Positions 1 to 12,467 of a DNA stretch of 46,359 nt are shown here, piece after piece (positions within the stretch are counted from its first letter, which is position 1; each line of letters starts with the position of its first letter). The notes under the pieces are model-generated. The model was not told the origin of the DNA. It saw nothing but the letters and a program-made list of their open reading frames with translations, and searched no databases. The DNA is taken from assembly GCF_003236385.1 (NCBI RefSeq), contig NZ_POUA01000013.1, positions 1 through 46,359 of the forward strand, in the 5' to 3' direction. Made by a program: the position numbers and the translations under genes. Origin of the DNA: Spongiactinospora gelatinilytica. GTDB lineage: Bacteria; Actinomycetota; Actinomycetes; Streptosporangiales; Streptosporangiaceae.

Positions 1-140
1 CCACCAGCCCCACCCGGACCGGATCCATGCCGTTTCCTCCTTTGACGCCTCCGACTTCGAGGTCTCCGATGAGCCTATGGGGGCCCACGGCGTTCCCCGG
101 CCACGGACCTCGCCGCCCTGCGGGAGAAGATGGAAGGACC
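1..140. other. Upstream leader, no gene supported
   Basis: The reading frame of the phosphatase stays open back to an ATG at 27, but the translated extension is proline- and serine-rich, resembles no domain, and would put about 38 residues before the catalytic start. I treat this stretch as non-coding leader or the end of an upstream intergenic region. Confidence 0.5.
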
Positions 141-3194: not shown

Positions 3195-5606
3195 ATGGAC
3201 GATCACCTGCTCGGCTGGCTGAAGACCCTTGACGAAGACAGGCTCGCCCGCGTCCTTGCCAACCGGCCCGACGCCCTCGCCGCCCCCTGGCCGCGCCGCC
3301 TGGACACGCTGGCGCAGCGGCTGGGCAACGGTATCGCGATGACGGAGGCGGTCCGCGGCCTGCCGCTGCCCTGCCTGGAGATCGCGCAGGCGTGCCTGGT
3401 GATCGGCGGCTCTCCCACGGTGGCCGGGCTGGCCGCGCTGCTCGCCGTACCCGAGGACGACGTGCGCCCCTGGCTGGACCGGCTGCACGAGCACGCCCTG
3501 GCCTGGCCGGACGACGAGGGCCGGGTGCGCCTGGCCCCCGCGCTGGCCCGCTGGTGGCCCGCGCCGTGCGGCCTCGGCGAGCCGCTGGCCCACTACCTCA
3601 ACTCCTGGACGATCAGCGCGGACGCGCTGCGCGCCCTGGCGAAGAACCTCGGCGTGCCCTCCCACGGCCCCAAGCGGCGGGCCGCGCTGCGGGTGGCCGA
3701 GATCCTGTCCGACCCCGCGCAGGTGGCAGCGCTGCTGGCCGAGGCCCCGCAGGGCGCGCGCGGGCTGGCGGAGGAGTTCGCCTGGGAGGGCCCGGTACGC
3801 GACGTGGACGGCGGGCTGTTCGTCGTGCCCGGATCGGCGGAGAAATGGGCGGCCGACCACGGCCTGCTGTTCCGGCCGAGCTGGAACGTCGCGGAGATGC
3901 CGCGCGAGGTCGCGCTGGCCGTACGCGGGCCCGGCTGGCACCCGCCGCTGACCGCCGTCCCGCCCGACCTCGCCACGCTGCCGGTCGATCCCGAGGAGGT
4001 CGATCACCTGATGGCGCTGGCGGCCCCGCACGTGGTCGAGCGCTGCGCGGCACTGCTGGACAACACCGCCAAGACGCCGCTGCCGCTGCTGAAGAGCGGC
4101 GGGGTGGGCGTGCGCGAGGTGCGCAGGGTCGCCAAGGAGACCTCCTGCGACGAGGACGAGACCCGGCTGCTGCTGGAGATCTGCGCCGTGGCCAGGCTGC
4201 TGGCCTGGGACGAGGCGGCGGGCGGGCTGGTGCCCACCGAGCGCTTCGACCACTGGCGGCTGGACGACGGCGCGACCCGGCTGCGCGCGCTGCTGGCCGC
4301 CTGGTGGCGGATGGAGCGCTCCTCACTGCGCAAGGTCAACGGCAAGTACGCGACGGTCCTCGGCGACGACCCGGCCGGGACGATGATCGCCCGCATCCGC
4401 CGTGCGGTGCTCGGCGTGCTCGCCGGGCTGCCCGACGCCACCGCGCACGCCGACCGCGCGGGGCTGGTACGGCACGTGGGCTGGCACGCTCCCACCCTGG
4501 ACCCCGCGCTGCTGGCCGAGATCGCCCCGGCCGTGCTGGACGAGGCCAGGCTGCTCGGCCTGATCGCCCACGACGCGCTCACCGACCTCGGCCGGGCGCT
4601 CGCCGCGCTGGACCTGGTGGCCGGCGCCGAGCACGACGACCACGCCCCGGCCGTGGAGCACGACCCCGCGCTGGTCGAGTGCTCCACCCGGGCGCTGGCC
4701 GGCGTACGCCGCAGCGCGCTGTTCGGAGCCGACCTGACGGCCGTGGTCACCGGCCCGCCCTCGGCGGAGCTGGCCGCGCTGCTCGACCGCGCCGCCGACC
4801 GGGAGTCACGCGGCGCGGCGGCGGCCTCGGTCTGGCGTTTCTCCCCGCAGAGCGTGCGCAGGGCGCTCGACGCGGGCGACACCCCGGACGGCCTGCTCGA
4901 TGACCTCGCGGCCGTGGGCACGGTACCTCAGCCGCTCAGCTACCTCGTCCACGACGTGGCGCGGCGGCACGGCGAGGTGACCGTGACCAGCGTCACCTGC
5001 ATCGTGCAGGCGTCCGATCCGGCCCTGCTCGCCGAGATCGCCGCCAACCGGCGGCTGTCCCGGCTCGGCCTGCGCGCCCTGGCCCCCACCGTGCTGGCCG
5101 GTTCGGCCCCCGCCGACCGCACCCTGGCGGCGCTGCGCGAGGCGGGGTACGCGCCGGTGCCGATCGACGACACCGGCGAGATCACGATCCGCCGCGCCAA
5201 GATCGAAGAACCTCGGGGCGGGCGGCTCATCCTGCTGCCCGGCGGGCAGGTCGCCGAGCTGGAGGCCCCGCCGGGCGACATCGCCGAGCCGCCGCCCGAC
5301 CCCCGCGAGCACGCCAGGCGACTGCTCGGCGCGGCCGGTACCGAGCCCCGCCCGGGCGGGCGCACCTGGGCCGTCATCGGCCGCGGCGCCACCCGCCTGC
5401 CCACCGCGCAGCAGTCGCTGCTCGGATTCGTGGTGGACCGCGGGGTGCGCGCGGCGATCACGCTGACCGGCGGCCTGACCGCCACCATCAGCCACGGCGA
5501 GCTGCGCAGCGGCGTCCTCGACGCCTGGTGTGAGGAGGCGGGCGACTATCTGGAGTTCCCGCTGGCCGAGATCGTCGAGGTCCGCGGCGCGCACCTTCCC
5601 GGCTAG
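3195..5606 (+). CDS. Helicase-associated (XPB/Ssl2-like) domain protein
   Basis: An 803-residue cytoplasmic protein of the actinobacterial group annotated as helicase-associated or helicase C-terminal domain proteins. The N-terminal half is alpha-helical with winged-helix-like segments. The conserved XPB/Ssl2-like part lies around residues 590-640 (V-T-C-I-V-Q-A-S-D-P-A-L-L, then R-R-L-S-R-L-G-L-R-A-L-A-P-T-V-L). No Walker A or DEAD/DEAH motif is visible, so helicase activity on its own is not supported. A role in DNA repair or as an accessory to a helicase is only inferred from the family name. The ATG at 3195 follows AGAGAGCTGAGAG. The gene ends tail-to-tail with a 4-base overlap into the siderophore-binding gene fragment. 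Confidence 0.85.
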   Translation: MDDHLLGWLKTLDEDRLARVLANRPDALAAPWPRRLDTLAQRLGNGIAMTEAVRGLPLPCLEIAQACLVIGGSPTVAGLAALLAVPEDDVRPWLDRLHEHALAWPDDEGRVRLAPALARWWPAPCGLGEPLAHYLNSWTISADALRALAKNLGVPSHGPKRRAALRVAEILSDPAQVAALLAEAPQGARGLAEEFAWEGPVRDVDGGLFVVPGSAEKWAADHGLLFRPSWNVAEMPREVALAVRGPGWHPPLTAVPPDLATLPVDPEEVDHLMALAAPHVVERCAALLDNTAKTPLPLLKSGGVGVREVRRVAKETSCDEDETRLLLEICAVARLLAWDEAAGGLVPTERFDHWRLDDGATRLRALLAAWWRMERSSLRKVNGKYATVLGDDPAGTMIARIRRAVLGVLAGLPDATAHADRAGLVRHVGWHAPTLDPALLAEIAPAVLDEARLLGLIAHDALTDLGRALAALDLVAGAEHDDHAPAVEHDPALVECSTRALAGVRRSALFGADLTAVVTGPPSAELAALLDRAADRESRGAAAASVWRFSPQSVRRALDAGDTPDGLLDDLAAVGTVPQPLSYLVHDVARRHGEVTVTSVTCIVQASDPALLAEIAANRRLSRLGLRALAPTVLAGSAPADRTLAALREAGYAPVPIDDTGEITIRRAKIEEPRGGRLILLPGGQVAELEAPPGDIAEPPPDPREHARRLLGAAGTEPRPGGRTWAVIGRGATRLPTAQQSLLGFVVDRGVRAAITLTGGLTATISHGELRSGVLDAWCEEAGDYLEFPLAEIVEVRGAHLPG

Positions 5607-6380
5607 ACGAGCTTCTTCGACTTGGTGAGGGCCGCGACCAGCTCTTCGAGCACCCCCGCGTGGCCGAGGTAGCTGAACCGCTCCTCCGCCCGCCACGGGA
5701 ACGTCTGGCCCGCCGCGACCGCGGGCAGCTTGGCGAACGTCGGCTTCTGCTTCATCTCCGCCAGGGTCATCGACCGCGCGCGGTCGTCACAAAGGATCAC
5801 GTCCGCCGCGTACTTGTCGGCGTTCTCCCAACTGATCGTCTCGAAGAAGCCCCCGGCGTCGGGCTTTTCCGGCACGACCACGTCCAGCCCGATCGACGTC
5901 ATGTAGGTGACGCCCGCGTGATCCGAGGGAACGACCACCCACATGCTGTCCGGGCCGCCCGACATGATGAGCACCTTCAGCTTCTTCTCCCCGGCCAGTT
6001 CGGTCAGCTTGGCCGACGCGGCCTCGAACCTGGACTTGGCGGCCACCACGGCGGGAGCGCCGAGATCGGCGCCGAGGGAGGCGGCCAGCTCCGCGTACCT
6101 GCCGATGATCTCGTCGAGCGGCGGGCCGGAGATCCGCACGCCGACGGTGGGCGCCACGCTCTCGATGGCCGCCGCCGACTTCTTCGGCACGTACCACAGC
6201 TCGTCCTTCACATACATCCCGCTGATCAGCAGCTCCGGCCGCAGCGAAGCGTACTTCTCGACGTTGAACTCGTCGAACACGTTGCCGAGCGATTCGACCT
6301 TGGTGATGTCCACCTCGCCGACCTGCGGGTCGCGCCCGCCGTCCTTGAGCCGGTGCGGGCCGAAGACGGCGATCGGGCGG
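5603..6380 (-). pseudogene. Siderophore ABC substrate-binding protein, 5' end missing
   Basis: About 258 codons match the C-terminal two thirds of an iron-siderophore binding protein (FepB/TroA-type fold). Recognisable parts are R-P-I-A-V-F-G-P-H, then S-L-G-N-V-F-D-E-F-N-V-E-K, P-E-L-L-I-S-G, and a conserved C-terminal helix. Upstream of about 6380 the frame stays open but turns into arginine/aspartate-rich nonsense that is antisense to a permease gene. The signal peptide, lipobox and first about 80-90 residues are absent, so the product could not be exported as a lipoprotein. The remaining reading frame has no internal stops, which suggests the loss is recent or comes from assembly. Confidence 0.8.
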
Positions 6381-7062
6381 CCACCGGGGCGATCATCGCG
6401 ACGGTCGCCGGAGGGGCGACGGCGATGATTGCGGGCGGCGCGCTGGCCGGCAGCGCGCTCGCCGCGGTCTGCGTCTACGTACTGGCCTACCGGCGCGGCG
6501 TCCACGGCTACCGGCTGGTGCTCGTGGGCATCGGCGTGAACGCCATCCTGCTCGCGGTCAACTCCTACCTGCTCACCCGCGCCAACATCAACGACGCGGC
6601 GACGGCCGCGGCATGGCTGACCGGCAGCCTGGGCGGGCGCGGCCGGGAGCACGCCGTGCCCGTCGCGCTCGCCCTGGCGGTACTGCTGCCGCTGTGCGTG
6701 CCGTTGTCGCGGCCCATGCGGATGATGGAGATGGGCGACGACGCCGCCGCCGCGATGGGCATCAAGGTGCAGCGCGTCCGCGGCTGCGCGATGGCCGTCG
6801 CGGTGGCGCTGTGCGGCGTGGCGACGGCCGCGGCGGGCCCGGTGGCGTTCGTCGCGCTCACCGCGCCCCAACTGGCCCGCCGCCTGACCCGCTCCCCCGG
6901 CGTCACGCTGGTGGCGTCGCGCTGATGGGCGCGGTGCTGCTGGTGCTCGCCGACTTCGCGGCGCAGCGCGTGCTCGCGCCGGTCCAGCTCCCGGTCGGCG
7001 TGCTCACCGCCGCACTCGGTGGTGGCTACCTGGTCCTGCTCCTGCGGAAGGAACGACGTTGA
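6381..7062 (+). pseudogene. FecCD-type siderophore permease, 5' truncated and frameshifted
   Basis: The translated sequence from about 6381 matches the C-terminal 60-65 percent of a FecCD/BtuC-type permease: a membrane span ending in Y-R-R-G, then V-L-V-G-I-G-V-N-A, A-W-L-T-G-S-L, and G-P-V-A-F-V-A-L-T-A-P-Q-L-A-R. The first about 120 residues and any start codon are missing. A second lesion lies near 6917-6922: one base appears lost between V-A-S and L-M-G-A-V-L-L, which gives a TGA at 6923 in the original frame, while the last about 46 residues continue in another frame to 7062. The end overlaps the ATPase start (CGTTGA). A functional product is unlikely unless the sequence contains errors. 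Confidence 0.8.
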
Positions 7063-8423: not shown

Positions 8424-9176
8424 ATGGGCGCGACGATGGCGCAGGCCGTCCTGCGGGCGGCGGACGGCGCGCGGGTGACGGTGGACCTGCCGGAGCAGGC
8501 GGGCGGGCTGGAGTGGTACGGCCACACGCGGATGGCCGGGCCGCGGCTGCTGCGCGCCTACGACCTAGCGCCCGCCGGGCAGCACAAGGTGATCCCCGGC
8601 AAGATCCTCCCGGGGGCGCGGCGCGAGGTACGCGGGCGCAGGGGGTATGACCTCGTGCTCTATGAGGCCGCGGACCGGTCGCGCAGTTGCCTGGTCTGGG
8701 CGGGCCCCTACCACGAGGCCACGACCTGGTTCGGCGGTCCCGCGCCGCGTCCCGCCGTCCTCGACGAGCTGACGACGTCGGTCCTCTTCCGCGACTCGCG
8801 GCAGGGCGCCACGCTGACCCCGCGCCGCACGGCCGGTCCCGGCATACGCCAGTACGGCACGTTCGTGGTCGGCATGGGCGACCGGCTGGTCGTCATGATC
8901 CGGGACGCCAAGGCGGCGAAGGACGGACTGCCCGAATGGCGCGGCGCACGGCTCGGCGAGGCGGAGGTGTGGAAAGAGCGGCTGGATCTCGACCCGGCCA
9001 CACGCGCCGCCCTGGCCGGCACGCCGTTCGAGTGGCGCTACGTCTACGCCACCGGCACCGCCGCCTACACCGTCGTCTTCCCCACCCGCCCCGGCCGCGA
9101 CGAAACCCGCGGCCAGGCGACCGGCGCCGCCGTGGACACCGTCCTCACCACCATCCGGGTCCGGTGGTCCGCATGA
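8424..9176 (+). CDS. Hypothetical protein, first gene of the selD-containing run
   Basis: A 250-residue protein that I do not recognise. No membrane span or signal peptide is apparent. It contains only one cysteine (in the R-S-C-L-V-W segment), which sets it apart from the cysteine-rich genes downstream. The composition is a normal alpha/beta mix, with W-Y-G-H-T near the N terminus and repeated short beta-strand-like stretches. Two ATG codons are possible (8424 and 8436); a GAGGGG stretch precedes the first very closely. The next gene begins 31 bases after its stop on the same strand, so co-transcription with the redox/selD genes is likely, but a shared function is not shown. Confidence 0.75.
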   Translation: MGATMAQAVLRAADGARVTVDLPEQAGGLEWYGHTRMAGPRLLRAYDLAPAGQHKVIPGKILPGARREVRGRRGYDLVLYEAADRSRSCLVWAGPYHEATTWFGGPAPRPAVLDELTTSVLFRDSRQGATLTPRRTAGPGIRQYGTFVVGMGDRLVVMIRDAKAAKDGLPEWRGARLGEAEVWKERLDLDPATRAALAGTPFEWRYVYATGTAAYTVVFPTRPGRDETRGQATGAAVDTVLTTIRVRWSA

Positions 9177-9207: not shown

Positions 9208-9729
9208 GTGAACGTCGGGACGGCGCTGGCGTTGTGCTCGATGGGGGTGTCGGCGTTCGCGGTGCTCGCCGTCGGGGCCGTCTATGCGCGGTTGCGGGGC
9301 CTGGAGCGGGCCGAGGGCGCTGGCGATGCCGCACGGCTCGCGCCCGCCGGGCTGTCACCCGCCGGAGGGCAGGCGGTCTCGCTCGTCGTCCTGCTGGACG
9401 GCGGCTGCGCGCTGTGCCCCGGGCTGTGGCGGCAGGCCCGCGCGTTCACCGCCGACCGGCCGGACGTCCGGCTGGTCGGCCTGGTGGCCGCGGAGGAGGC
9501 CGCGCGGCGCCTCGCCGACCCTGGCGGGCCGGGCGAGTGCGCGCCGCTGGCCGACCCCGGCGCGTGGGCGGAGATGTACGAGGGCTACACGCCCTGCCTC
9601 TACCTGGTCCGCGCGAACGGCGTCATCGCCCACCGGGCCTTCGTCTACGCCGACACCGACGTCCCCGCCCTTCTCACGCGGGCCCTGCCCGCGCCGGCCG
9701 TACCCGCGAACCAAGGAGGACGCGCATGA
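9208..9729 (+). CDS. Membrane-anchored thioredoxin-fold protein (MauD/TlpA-like)
   Basis: A 173-residue protein with one N-terminal membrane span (about residues 4-26), an R-L-R-G-L-E-R linker, then a thioredoxin-like core. Strand V-V-L-L-D is followed directly by G-G-C-A-L-C-P, a CxxC redox centre, and the cis-proline-like Y-T-P-C-L-Y-L comes later. The layout resembles MauD, the accessory thioredoxin for disulfide formation in methylamine dehydrogenase maturation; the resemblance is by architecture and not proven. The GTG start at 9208 is chosen because the membrane span begins at once. The stop overlaps the next start (9726-9729), indicating coupling to the six-cysteine protein that may be its substrate. 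Confidence 0.75.
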   Translation: MNVGTALALCSMGVSAFAVLAVGAVYARLRGLERAEGAGDAARLAPAGLSPAGGQAVSLVVLLDGGCALCPGLWRQARAFTADRPDVRLVGLVAAEEAARRLADPGGPGECAPLADPGAWAEMYEGYTPCLYLVRANGVIAHRAFVYADTDVPALLTRALPAPAVPANQGGRA

Positions 9730-10301
9730 GCACGCACCTCACCGCCACCATCCCGGAGATCAGCCCGAACGGCGGCCCCGGAGGGCCGGACGAGGGCCGG
9801 GAACCCAGCCGGATCCGGGCGCTCATCGGCGGGCCGCCGATCTCGCGCGCCACCCTGTTGCGCGGCCTGGCCGTCGCCGCCCTCGCGGCCACGCTCGCGC
9901 CGTTCGACTGGTACCTGACCCGCCGCGCGGCGCGCGCCTCCCGGGGACCGTCCTCGGAGTGGACCTCCGGCGACTGCAAGGACGCCTACCCGGACGGGTA
10001 CTCCGCCTCGGATGCGAACTGGTTCTCCGGGCCCGCCGCCTGCTACGGCGGCTGGCGGATCGGCTCCTACCCCTGCAACGACGCCAACTGGCACTTCGAG
10101 GGCTCCCGCGCCGACTCCGACGTCGGCGAGGAGTACACCGCCCACCGGACCGACTCCTTCTGCGGCTCCCGGGACACCAGGACCGCCTGGCGCTGGACCT
10201 CGGGCGACGACCTCTACCGCTGCTCCGACGCGATGACCACCGTGACCTGGCGCGACGGCACCCGCTACCGGGGCCTGACCATCGCCATGTGCGAACTGTG
10301 A
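9726..10301 (+). CDS. Membrane-anchored or exported six-cysteine protein
   Basis: A 191-residue protein. About 45 soluble N-terminal residues lead into a hydrophobic segment (L-L-R-G-L-A-V-A-A-L-A-A) that could be a signal or anchor; there is no strict twin-arginine pair. The rest carries six cysteines, in the contexts D-C-K, A-C-Y, P-C-N, F-C-G, R-C-S and M-C-E, enough for three disulfides. It is rich in tryptophan, with D-A-N-W twice. This cysteine-rich exported module next to a MauD-like thioredoxin recalls the methylamine dehydrogenase light chain, but I cannot align the quinone-forming tryptophans and no heavy chain is present. The gene overlaps both neighbours by 4 bases (ATGA at 9726, GTGA at 10298). 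Confidence 0.75.
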   Translation: MSTHLTATIPEISPNGGPGGPDEGREPSRIRALIGGPPISRATLLRGLAVAALAATLAPFDWYLTRRAARASRGPSSEWTSGDCKDAYPDGYSASDANWFSGPAACYGGWRIGSYPCNDANWHFEGSRADSDVGEEYTAHRTDSFCGSRDTRTAWRWTSGDDLYRCSDAMTTVTWRDGTRYRGLTIAMCEL

Positions 10302-11041
10302 CCGCGGGTACGGCCGCGCGGCGCACGATGCTGCGCCCGGAGACGCTGGCCGTGCCGATCGCGGGCGGAGCCTGGGCGCTGGCCGGTCTGGACGCGCCCG
10401 CCCTGGTCATGTTCCTCTGGGCGGGGCTCAACGCCGGATACGCCAACTCGGGCAGCACGTGAAGCCACAACTCGGCGTTCCTGCTGAGCGCGCCGGTCTG
10501 GCGCGGACCCGCCGCCCTGGCCTGCTTCGGCCTCGGCCTCCTGGCCGGGGCGTGCAGCGTCGCCGCCTGCGCCGTCGCCGTGGGCGGGGTGCTCCAGGCG
10601 CTGCTGCCCGGCCCGCTGCGACCGGCCCTGCTCGCACCGGCCGCGGCGGCGGTGCTGCTCCGCGAGGCGGGGGTGCTGCGGTTCGCCGTACCGGAGAACC
10701 GGCGGCTGGTACCCGAGCACGTGGTGCTGCGCGGGCCGGTCGCGGGGGCGCTGCAGTTCGGGTTCGAGATGGGCACCGGGATGCGGACCTACTCGCCCTC
10801 GGCGCTCCCCCACCTGCTGCTGGCCGCGCTGCTGCTGGCCGTCCCCCCTGCGGGGGCGCTCGCCGCCGCGACCGGATTCGCCGCCGCCCGCTGGGCCGCG
10901 GCCGCCGCCACCGTGGCCCACGACGGTTCCACCCGAGGCGGAAGCTGGGACGCACGCTGGCGGACCGCCCACCGCCCACTCGCGCTCGCGACCGCCCTGG
11001 CCACGGTCATCTCACTGGCCTGCGGAATCAGTGGAGGGTGA
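10298..11041 (+). CDS. Candidate selenoprotein: membrane protein with in-frame TGA (Sec55)
   Basis: Read through the TGA at 10460-10462, the frame gives 247 residues beginning at GTG 10298, which overlaps the previous stop (GTGA). Codon 55 is the TGA, in the context G-S-T-[U]-S-H-N-S. Both sides are hydrophobic and share the same frame and high third-position GC: spans before (about 20-48) and several after, including one with A-C-S-V-A-A-C. A segment with G-F-E-M-G-T-G-M-R-T-Y recalls DsbD/CcdA/MauF-type membrane redox proteins, but this is a weak comparison. selD lies two genes downstream, and hairpins at 10471-10505 could act as a SECIS. The alternative is a nonsense mutation or sequencing error in an ordinary gene, in which case the 3' part is a remnant. 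Confidence 0.7.
10471..10505 (+). promoter_or_regulatory. Tandem SECIS-like hairpins just after the in-frame TGA
   Basis: Hairpin 1: CTCGGC (10471-10476) pairs with GCTGAG (10483-10488), with one G-U, around loop GTTCCT. Hairpin 2 follows without a gap: CGCGCC (10489-10494) pairs perfectly with GGCGCG (10500-10505) around loop GGTCT. Bacterial SECIS elements are stem-loops shortly downstream of the UGA whose apical loop starts with a G; the loops here begin 15 and 33 bases after the TGA. The GGTC in loop 2 is the same as in the E. coli fdhF element. High GC makes chance hairpins common, so this supports but does not prove recoding. Confidence 0.5.
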
Positions 11042-11045
11042 CGTG

Positions 11046-11381
11046 ATGGGCGATGTGGCACGGGTGGTGGTGGTGCATGACGCGGCTTGCGGGGGGTGCT
11101 CGGCGATCGCGGTACGGCTGGCCGGGGTGCTGGGCGTGCCGGTCGTGATCCGGTCGTGCCGGGACCCCGGGCTGGCGGCGGAGTACCCGCTGCCGCCTCG
11201 GACGGGGTGTGGCGCGCCGCTCGCCGTCGCGATCGGGCGAAGCGGGCGGGTGCGCGTCTGGCGGGGCCTCGCGTTGCCGCTGCGGATGGCGGGCCTGGTC
11301 GCTCCGGGCCGCCGGGGCGCGGCGCTCCGCCTGGCCGGGCATGCCCTGCGGCGGCATCTGCGCCGCAGGAGAGGCCGTTGA
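11046..11381 (+). CDS. Small CxxC protein, thioredoxin-like (DCC-like)
   Basis: A 111-residue protein that opens with a beta strand V-V-V-V-H-D followed by A-A-C-G-G-C-S, a CxxC redox motif placed as in thioredoxin-like DCC-type thiol-disulfide oxidoreductases. Two more cysteines follow (R-S-C-R and T-G-C-G-A-P). The C-terminal 25 residues are strongly basic (R-R-H-L-R-R-R-R), perhaps for membrane or nucleic acid contact. GGAGGG at 11033-11038 favours the ATG at 11046 over the GTG at 11031. The gene follows the candidate selenoprotein by 4 bases and precedes selD by 72, so it belongs to the same operon. A role as cytoplasmic electron donor to the membrane protein is inference. Confidence 0.72.
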   Translation: MGDVARVVVVHDAACGGCSAIAVRLAGVLGVPVVIRSCRDPGLAAEYPLPPRTGCGAPLAVAIGRSGRVRVWRGLALPLRMAGLVAPGRRGAALRLAGHALRRHLRRRRGR

Positions 11382-11453: not shown

Positions 11454-12467
11454 ATGCTCCGCTTGACGCACTACGCCCAGGGCGGCGGCTGCGCCTGCAA
11501 GATCCCGGCCGGTGAACTCGAAGCCGTGCTGGCCGGGCTGGCCGGGTTGACCGGGGGGACGCCGCAGGGCGACCTGCTGGTGGGCCTGGACACCGGCGAC
11601 GACGCCGCCGTGGTGCGGATCTCGGCGGGACAGGCCGTGGTGAGCACCGCCGACTTCTTCACGCCGGTCGTGGACGACCCCTACGACTGGGGACGCGTGG
11701 CCGCCGCCAACGCGCTGTCCGACGTGTACGCGATGGGCGGCCGGCCGCTGGTCGCGCTGAACCTGCTGTGCTGGCCGCGCGAGGGCCCGCCGTACGACGT
11801 GGCCGGCGAGGTGCTGCGCGGCGGGGCCGACATCGCCGCCAAGGCGGGCTGCCACCTGGCGGGCGGCCACAGCGTGCACGGCCCCGAGCCGCTGTACGGC
11901 ATGGCGGTCACCGGCCTGGCCGACCCCGATCGCCTGATGCGCAACGACGCCGGACGCCCGGGCCTGCCGCTGTCCCTGACCAAGCCGATCGGCTCGGGCG
12001 TGCTGAACAACAGGCACAAGGCCACCGGCGAGACCTTCCCCCAGGCGGTGGAGGTGATGACCGCGCTCAACGCCGACGCCGCCGCCCTGGCCACAGCGGC
12101 CGGCGTGCGCTGCGCCACCGACGTGACCGGCTTCGGGCTGCTCGGCCACCTGTACAAACTGGCCCGCGCCTCGGGTGTCACCGCCGAAATCGACGCCGCC
12201 GCCGTACCGGTCATCGAGGGGGCCTGGGAGGCGATCCGCGACGGCTACGTGCCGGGCGGATCGCGGCGCAATCTGGAGTGGGTGGCGCCGCACCTCGATC
12301 CGGGCGACGCCGGCGAGCACCTGCTGCTCCTGCTCGCCGACGCCCAGACCTCAGGCGGGCTGCTCATCGCCGGGGAGATCCCCGGCGCGCCGGTCATCGG
12401 CCGGCTGACGCCGCGCGGCGAGCATCCGGTCGTGATCCGCGGCACGGCGGCTCACCTGCGCGTGTAG
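11454..12467 (+). CDS. selD: Selenide, water dikinase
   Basis: A 337-residue SelD. It makes selenophosphate from selenide and ATP, the selenium donor for Sec-tRNA and selenouridine. The glycine-rich N-terminal loop G-G-G-C-A-C-K places the catalytic cysteine at position 13 and the lysine at 16; this enzyme uses Cys where some SelDs have Sec. Further family marks are D-T-G-D-D-A-A-V, S-T-A-D-F-F, A-N-A-L-S-D-V-Y-A-M-G-G and T-D-V-T-G-F-G-L-L-G-H. GGGAGG precedes the ATG. It is the last gene of a same-strand run that includes the in-frame-TGA gene. Its stop overlaps the converging propeller gene by 16 bases. selA, selB and tRNA-Sec are not in this window. Confidence 0.96.
   Translation: MLRLTHYAQGGGCACKIPAGELEAVLAGLAGLTGGTPQGDLLVGLDTGDDAAVVRISAGQAVVSTADFFTPVVDDPYDWGRVAAANALSDVYAMGGRPLVALNLLCWPREGPPYDVAGEVLRGGADIAAKAGCHLAGGHSVHGPEPLYGMAVTGLADPDRLMRNDAGRPGLPLSLTKPIGSGVLNNRHKATGETFPQAVEVMTALNADAAALATAAGVRCATDVTGFGLLGHLYKLARASGVTAEIDAAAVPVIEGAWEAIRDGYVPGGSRRNLEWVAPHLDPGDAGEHLLLLLADAQTSGGLLIAGEIPGAPVIGRLTPRGEHPVVIRGTAAHLRV

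Follow-up and report, generated by a model that had tools for sequence, protein, structure and literature searches.

The 46,359-nucleotide stretch analysed here, positions 1 to 46,359 of contig NZ_POUA01000013.1 of Spongiactinospora gelatinilytica (the window), contains a gene for a small membrane protein with an in-frame TGA at 10460. Comparative sequence evidence argues that this TGA is almost certainly decoded as selenocysteine (Sec) by way of SelB and tRNA-Sec. Our explanation of the whole, which we consider probable, is that the gene encodes a selenoprotein with a two-hairpin selenocysteine insertion sequence (SECIS), that the product is DsbD/CcdA-like, and that it feeds a thiol pathway. 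A first-pass annotation of this DNA had proposed a selenoprotein, and that reading is now supported by TGA conservation, Cys exchange, the Sec machinery and RNA structure. Two features are central.

10298..11041, + strand: membrane selenoprotein gene, 247 amino acids with Sec55; GTGA overlap with the stop of the preceding gene, TatCys
10460..10462, + strand: in-frame TGA, read as selenocysteine at position 55; TGA conserved, Cys in five distant relatives

The frame itself is as first described. It meets TGA 10460-10462 at codon 55, continues through 192 sense codons and ends at the terminal TGA 11039-11041, with third-position GC of 0.93 upstream of the internal TGA and 0.92 downstream. Possible starts are GTG 10289, GTG 10298 and ATG 10328. 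The open frame alone is weak evidence, because in this GC-rich window 87 of the 951 TGAs on both strands have at least 192 open codons behind them; its length was dropped as sufficient evidence by itself. The codons before the TGA are under coding constraint in the gene frame, where the ratio of synonymous to nonsynonymous change (82 sequences) is 0.61, the other two frames giving 0.13 and 0.06.

Relatives of the protein provide the stronger argument. A search of 60 related genomes found it in eight (the window genome included), each with one internal TGA. A wider search counted 96 relatives and supplied the best 80 of them, named loci with actinobacterial titles, the 16 weaker ones lying outside the set. 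Of the 88 loci L009-L096, 87 have TGA as the aligned codon; in the remaining one, L038, where the alignment is too short, direct reading gives TGA as well. With the second copy present in L031, TGA thus occupies the position in 89 of 89 copies read from the 88 loci of this close group, not all of them independent since some loci repeat named species (L010 and L017, for example). Such conservation places the in-frame TGA far beyond chance. Nearly all copies carry the motif [YF]-x-x-S-G-S-x-U-[ST]-x-N-S. The alignment A1 joins the window protein with 61 of the 62 non-redundant named copies (L033, of atypical length, was left out; L066, with no start by the rule used, and L057 and L076, cut at a contig end, lie outside its source set). 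Residues S51, G52 and S53 before Sec and N58, S59 and A60 after it are invariant in A1, as are E157, T160 and T164 in the second half. No Cys form was seen within the close group.

Exchange of Sec for Cys is found in a more distant group. Among 396 genomes of the phylum, 30 match the A1 profile (62 members); among 394 of the class, 28 match a second profile, A2, built from 25 rows of the distant group. Left out of A2 are L108, L116 and L133, in which the motif is incomplete, masked or truncated, and L128, in which no start was found; its rows L110 and L126 are shortened at the C-terminal end. Four of the 28 matches (G281, G623, G635 and G648; E 2.4e-4 to 4.6e-4) were not counted; that of G623, locus L162, belongs to the Pfam families DsbD_TM and DsbD_2. 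Comparison of the two profiles gives 99.3%, with the Sec columns aligned together, and the distant motif is mostly SPUGxSM. The 35 distant sequences read divide into 30 with TGA and five with Cys encoded by TGC (L110, L111, L126, L143 and L144). Trp, Arg or a gap at position 55, any of which would have spoken against recoding, occurs in none of the relatives readable there; the position is masked in L116 and G323, L133, L108 and L146 are partial, and the gene is cut in G245. A tblastn search of plasmids with a Cys relative as query gave no match.

The Sec-decoding machinery tracks the TGA. In the window genome, where the search suggested at the outset found every component, tRNA-Sec and selB are neighbours on contig C255, selA lies on C71 and selD in the window; the selB product scores 242.6 bits, just above the curated cut-off of 242.25. 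ARAGORN finds no tRNA in the window itself. Counting each genome once, 51 genomes hold the TGA form (eight from the 60 relatives, 24 from the phylum and 19 from the class; G364 is entered from the match table only, with one TGA within the match). tRNA-Sec scores at least 56 bits in 48 of them, and the other three (G213, G454 and G552) have SelB above the curated cut-off. All 45 genomes of named loci that were searched, which partly coincide with the 51 so that the counts overlap, have tRNA-Sec at 62.7 bits or more. SelB was sought in 11 TGA genomes and exceeds the cut-off in eight. The earlier expectation that Cys would appear in relatives without Sec machinery is borne out by the five distant Cys forms, none of whose genomes has a SelB-level match (best scores 199.8, 135.3, 108.8, 87.5 and 184.9 bits) and four of which have no tRNA-Sec above look-alikes. 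The two top scores among them, in G053 and G072, come from frames of 451 and 400 amino acids, the size of EF-Tu.

Several of these observations speak against so clean a correlation. G213, G454 and G552 hold the TGA form and give no tRNA-Sec match; SelB falls under the cut-off in the TGA genomes G678 (240.7 bits), G014 (219.0) and G033 (209.6). The gap in SelB score between G033 and the best Cys genome (209.6 versus 199.8 bits) is narrow and rests on the EF-Tu-size frames. The Cys genome G053 has a borderline tRNA-Sec-like match at 55.2 bits, near the weakest accepted one (56.5 bits). This gene, at G053:C127:7530-7619, stands in a genome with no SelB-level match and a family member with Cys, and is possibly the remnant of a lost Sec system. 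Among family relatives without the selenoprotein gene, 25 of 29 family members (G019, G021, G022 and G031 left out), tRNA-Sec is present in 13 and missing in 12.

Two explanations deny selenocysteine altogether. That the TGA is a true stop, leaving a 54-codon open reading frame (ORF) with a separate downstream protein from an internal GTG or a recently broken gene, draws on the long frames that not infrequently follow TGAs in the window and on the 153-amino-acid ORF opened by GTG 10580, but is extremely improbable given TGA in 89 of 89 close copies and 30 of 35 distant sequences, the invariant residues flanking it, the coding constraint ahead of it and Cys relatives that read straight through. 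Near-cognate decoding as Trp, Cys or another standard residue, conceivable in that UGA readthrough is possible in principle, deserves very little credence: TGA tracks tRNA-Sec and SelB, the five Cys forms lie in genomes with no SelB-level match, no Trp relative occurs among those read, and the hairpins that follow the UGA point to SelB.

The RNA downstream of the UGA can form two adjacent hairpins, which we propose as the SECIS.

10471..10488, + strand: hairpin H1, proposed SECIS; 6 base pairs, 6-nucleotide loop; -7.5 kcal/mol folded alone
10489..10505, + strand: hairpin H2, proposed SECIS; 6 base pairs, apical loop GGUCU at 10495-10499; -10.7 kcal/mol folded alone

The GGUCU loop resembles that of E. 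coli fdhF. A 2026 catalogue of prokaryotic selenoproteins sets limits for a bacterial SECIS of a 3-9 nucleotide loop, a 4-16 base-pair stem, a spacing of 16-37 nucleotides and a minimum free energy (MFE) of -7.5 or lower, with G within the first two loop positions (PMC13188914). H2 falls within these limits, with its 5-nucleotide loop, 6 base pairs, a loop start 32 nucleotides past the UGA and -10.7 kcal/mol. Coding for the protein would not require hairpins this stable. For the segment TGA+0..48, the MFE lies under the mean of synonymous recodings in 71 of 71 non-redundant sequences (mean Z -1.56), and for TGA+6..51 the mean Z is -1.76 with 97% of the sequences under zero. Segments whose start lies between -57 and -21, or between +21 and +60, have mean Z from -0.13 to +0.58, and those starting at -9 and +12 about -0.7. 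An Rfam scan of the window at gathering scores gave no match.

Pairing was read in alignment A3, with 63 of 65 distinct sequences of the close group (L070 and the minus-strand L031 copy, one codon shorter before H2, left out), and in A4, with 27 of 28 distinct distant TGA sequences (outlier L125 left out). In A3, 91.0% of H1 cells and 99.5% of H2 cells are paired, 95.2% overall versus 28 to 46% when partners are slid by one to three columns, and the GGUCU loop of H2 is present in 57 rows. Covariation is seen at the H2 column pair 31/45, which occurs as G-C 32 times, U-A 18 times and U-G 12 times, and is unpaired once; since it joins the first base of an Ala/Ser codon to the third base of an Arg codon, protein coding offers no explanation for it. 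The distant TGA group (27 rows) forms H1 at nearly the same place from a different sequence, with 95.7% of cells paired and one pair exchanged between C-G (19) and G-C (7). If H1 is counted as intact when five or more of its six pairs form, 28 of the 30 distant TGA forms keep it, as does one of the five Cys forms. For H2, the positions tested show five or more of the six pairs in 20 of the 30 TGA forms.

The covariation tests are less favourable to a conserved two-hairpin element. H1 has no two-sided changes in A3, and its outermost pair is unpaired in 20 of 63 rows. Counts of two-sided pairs and pair types in A3 do not exceed shuffles, because most pairs hardly vary, and the control slid by +3 gives 32 two-sided cells versus 31 observed. 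RNAalifold returns H2 only from A3 and H1 only from A4. By folding Z, the Cys forms L110 (-1.27) and L111 (-1.42) are not separated from the TGA forms.

The product itself appears, on alignment evidence, to be a highly divergent DsbD/CcdA-like membrane protein whose sole invariant redox residue would be Sec. Its AlphaFold2 model has a predicted local distance difference test score (pLDDT) of 94.5 and a predicted template modelling score of 0.92. In the model, two halves each open with a broken helix (H35-49/H54-64 and H146-160/H170-180), which suggests that the halves are similar; the CcdA layout likewise consists of two halves, each opening with a broken helix. Selenocysteine at position 55 had been placed between membrane spans. 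The residue stands, and the location is revised: the model puts it not in a loop but where the second segment of the first broken helix, H35-49/H54-64, begins. In sequence, PF13386 (DsbD_2) matches 11 of 25 distant relatives (best 1.2e-10) and PF02683 (DsbD_TM) six of 25 (best 3.8e-6). Alignment of A2 by hhalign with L162, the DsbD_TM and DsbD_2 member, gives 72.9% and E 3.1e-5, with the Sec/Cys column on the SPC motif of L162. This alignment holds for the distant group and extends to the close group transitively, through the A1-A2 alignment (99.3%). Sec55 is the sole invariant Cys or Sec of A1; in A2 the one Cys that never varies is C25.

Against this assignment stand the close group and the fold searches. 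None of the 62 A1 members has a significant Pfam match, and A1 does not match the CcdA tested; the link to DsbD/CcdA runs via the distant group, and L113, the first member of that group, gets no further than E 0.0099 with PF13386, under the cut-off. The second redox Cys of CcdA, in the fourth transmembrane helix (TM4), has no counterpart, the TPC of L162 aligning with TTI. The top Foldseek probability among the 50 rows shown is 0.41, for CcdA 5vkv (E 0.58, TM-score 0.34). The best VIA-align Z is 5.7, and no weight is given to the absence of CcdA from its list. Neither Foldseek on the Protein Data Bank (PDB) and viral libraries nor VIA-align produced anything convincing, and a PDB sequence search with A1 gave no match. 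We therefore call the protein DsbD/CcdA-like and not a strict member, since the second Cys is missing, the close group is unmatched and the folds are indecisive.

The selenoprotein gene is the fourth in a tight run, with a GTGA overlap with the preceding gene's stop. The other genes, under working names, are as follows.

8424..9176, + strand: DUF250, about 250 amino acids, opens the conserved cluster; unmatched in Pfam and NCBIfam
9208..9729, + strand: TrxD, with an N-terminal membrane anchor (by inspection) and a thioredoxin-like CxxC (CALC); MauD-like
9726..10301, + strand: TatCys, Cys-rich, probably exported; ATGA overlap with TrxD
11046..11381, + strand: Trx2, small, with a CGGC motif, resembling thioredoxin by inspection; unmatched in Pfam and NCBIfam
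11454..12467, + strand: selD, selenophosphate synthetase, Cys form (GGCACK); TIGR00476, 380.4 bits

The place of selD in the same run, claimed by the first-pass annotation, holds at 11454-12467, with one ORF (11046-11381) between. Many SelD proteins have Sec where this one has Cys. Neighbours were counted on the same strand within 2.5 kilobases (kb) in the 80 named loci. A TrxD homologue lies upstream in all 80. DUF250 homologues occur in 79 (upstream in 77) and TatCys homologues in 78 (upstream in 76), both downstream only in L070 and L092; in L047 the DUF250 match and TatCys share one ORF. Trx2 homologues follow downstream in 28. A MauE relative is found within 2.5 kb in 30 of the 80 loci and anywhere in the locus in 40, the partner profiles having been built from the same loci in which MauE was counted. 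Sixteen further stretches, from 15 distant members and the close member L190, include 15 with a TrxD relative and 15 with a MauE relative; L180, a Cys form, has neither in its stretch. MauE exceeds the Pfam cut-off in both loci scanned. The window TrxD has no Pfam or NCBIfam match, and one of four relatives scanned, from L189, resembles MauD (TIGR02661) at E 2.7e-27, under the curated cut-off. At least one of selA, selB, selC and selD lies within about 6 kb in 23 of the 80 loci (stretches up to about 12.7 kb), and ARAGORN places tRNA-Sec inside 15.

Most relatives of TatCys carry the motif N-A-W-R-W, which reads T-A-W-R-W in the window copy, and C58, C80, C91, C140, W129 and W131 are invariant in the TatCys alignment A5. 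Of the 22 copies aligned, 21 have a twin arginine, and Pfam TAT_signal reaches one relative under the cut-off. TatCys is probably exported; export through Tat can only be inferred, because the window copy (SRATLLRG) lacks the twin arginine. The Cys-rich proteins of L179 and L181, distant counterparts of TatCys, end in C-terminal LGFP repeats.

Because these partner genes are conserved, we infer a pathway from a cytoplasmic thiol donor through Sec55 and TrxD to TatCys. Sec55, in its broken core helix, would accept reducing equivalents from the donor; a mixed selenosulfide would hand them to the membrane-anchored CxxC protein TrxD, with MauE taking part in many genomes; and the cysteines of TatCys would be kept reduced or correctly paired outside the membrane. 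That the Sec carrier passes reducing equivalents across the membrane to the TrxD/TatCys thiol pathway has, to judge from sequence and gene neighbourhood, about an even chance of being right.

Two other roles for a selenoprotein compete with this one. MauF is a membrane protein of the mau operon, and a MauF-like role in MauE/MauD-type maturation, with TatCys analogous to the light chain of methylamine dehydrogenase, would fit the MauE and MauD relatives in the cluster and the invariant Trp pair and several conserved Cys of TatCys. We regard it as rather unlikely: three TatCys-type proteins scanned have no Pfam light-chain match, and two distant counterparts have no PDB sequence match. TatCys as the light chain itself was rejected as a candidate after that PDB search, its AlphaFold2 model (pLDDT 62.8) being too weak for searching. 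Alternatively, the protein could be something other than a carrier of reducing equivalents, for instance a single-Sec membrane oxidoreductase with a small-molecule substrate, or a transporter whose Sec binds a metal or selenium compound. The single conserved redox residue and the invariant E157, T160 and T164 of the second half agree with such a role, and ZIP and Nramp transporters appear among the Foldseek matches with low significance. It is nonetheless an unlikely alternative, since Pfam and hhalign tie the protein to DsbD/CcdA via the distant group and nearly all named loci link it to CxxC thioredoxin-like and Cys-rich proteins, often with MauE. A Sec carrier that serves the TrxD/TatCys pathway is the function we prefer.

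Comparison with known systems places the protein more closely. It shares with the CcdA/DsbD transmembrane domain (PF13386, PF02683) the form of a small helical membrane protein and, presumably, thioredoxin-like partners, and in the distant group the Sec/Cys falls on the SPC of a protein of CcdA type; the close group differs in having Sec for Cys, no second Cys in TM4 and no Pfam match. By name, TsoB (NF045694) comes closest, given in the 2026 catalogue as a selenoprotein that includes a DsbD-like portion; unlike the window family, with its one Sec, TsoB is a rhodanese fusion with two (UxxxxU), and its profile touches 2 of the 62 A1 members (best E 0.019). The mau accessory proteins MauE (PF07291) and MauD (TIGR02661) have relatives in the cluster, but the Sec protein matches neither, and the proteins scanned include no identified subunit of methylamine dehydrogenase. 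The Sec-containing formate dehydrogenase (Fdh) alpha subunit shares the decoding and is otherwise an unrelated enzyme. Its representative in the window genome, L171, has GGUCU on a 6-base-pair stem when offsets 12-36 are folded alone, at offset 21 versus 35 behind an extra hairpin here; longer folds of L171 (0-40, 0-45 and 0-48) lose the GGUCU hairpin.

The family also seems to be new. The close group has no significant NCBIfam or Pfam match, so that annotation pipelines probably truncate these genes at the TGA. The 2026 catalogue lists 119 prokaryotic selenoprotein families and subfamilies, several of them membrane ones, and no entry in its Table 1 could be equated with this motif and type (PMC13188914). 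The original remark that the protein was not recognised as a well-known bacterial selenoprotein agrees with NCBIfam and with the catalogue, which show nothing like it. No report of the family was found in open-licence literature, and one elsewhere is possible. The sequences would accordingly represent a new selenoprotein family of unusual single-Sec DsbD/CcdA-like design, large, spread across many actinobacteria and apparently uncatalogued. More tentatively, and with rather less than even confidence, we suggest that these proteins form a widespread, overlooked class of single-Sec membrane electron carriers in an extracytoplasmic thiol pathway of actinobacteria, which largely retain the layout of a two-hairpin SECIS despite divergence in both protein and RNA.

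If correct, this reading would add a family with a single conserved Sec in a membrane protein to the catalogue. Because it lacks the second Cys, such a DsbD/CcdA-like protein would test transmembrane thiol transfer on one selenol, and the paired-hairpin SECIS would give SelB binding work a defined object. The family would also help to explain why many actinomycetes decode Sec. In a survey with one Fdh model (E <= 1e-35), a match with an in-frame TGA occurs in 8 of 24 genomes with the family and none was seen in 16; in these 16, the family may be a main reason for keeping Sec decoding, which it may keep alive in genomes without a Sec formate dehydrogenase.

Further observations concern individual genomes. 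L171, at about 1918 on contig C253 of the window genome, is the Fdh-like gene with an in-frame TGA (ARI-U-HSST) and GGUCU in a possible hairpin, and by its sequence would be the second selenoprotein of this genome. The genome of L041, from Amycolatopsis vancoresmycina, has tRNA-Sec at 73.5 bits and the selenoprotein described here; we take its strain number and DSM 44592 to denote the same strain. Amycolatopsis vancoresmycina DSM 44592 is listed as an orphan-SelD organism in Table 1 of PMC5029168. Given the tRNA-Sec and the selenoprotein of the L041 genome, that label may be a missed Sec trait. L031 holds two diverged selenoprotein copies on opposite strands together with tRNA-Sec and selB in one 12-kb locus, and Nonomuraea sp. 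G32 has three copies in one genome (L035, L064 and L086). Finally, at 5603-7062 of the window, two ORFs look on inspection like parts of a siderophore-binding protein, on the - strand, and of an iron-siderophore permease, on the + strand, whose facing N-terminal halves seem absent, an arrangement that could be an assembly join or a rearrangement.

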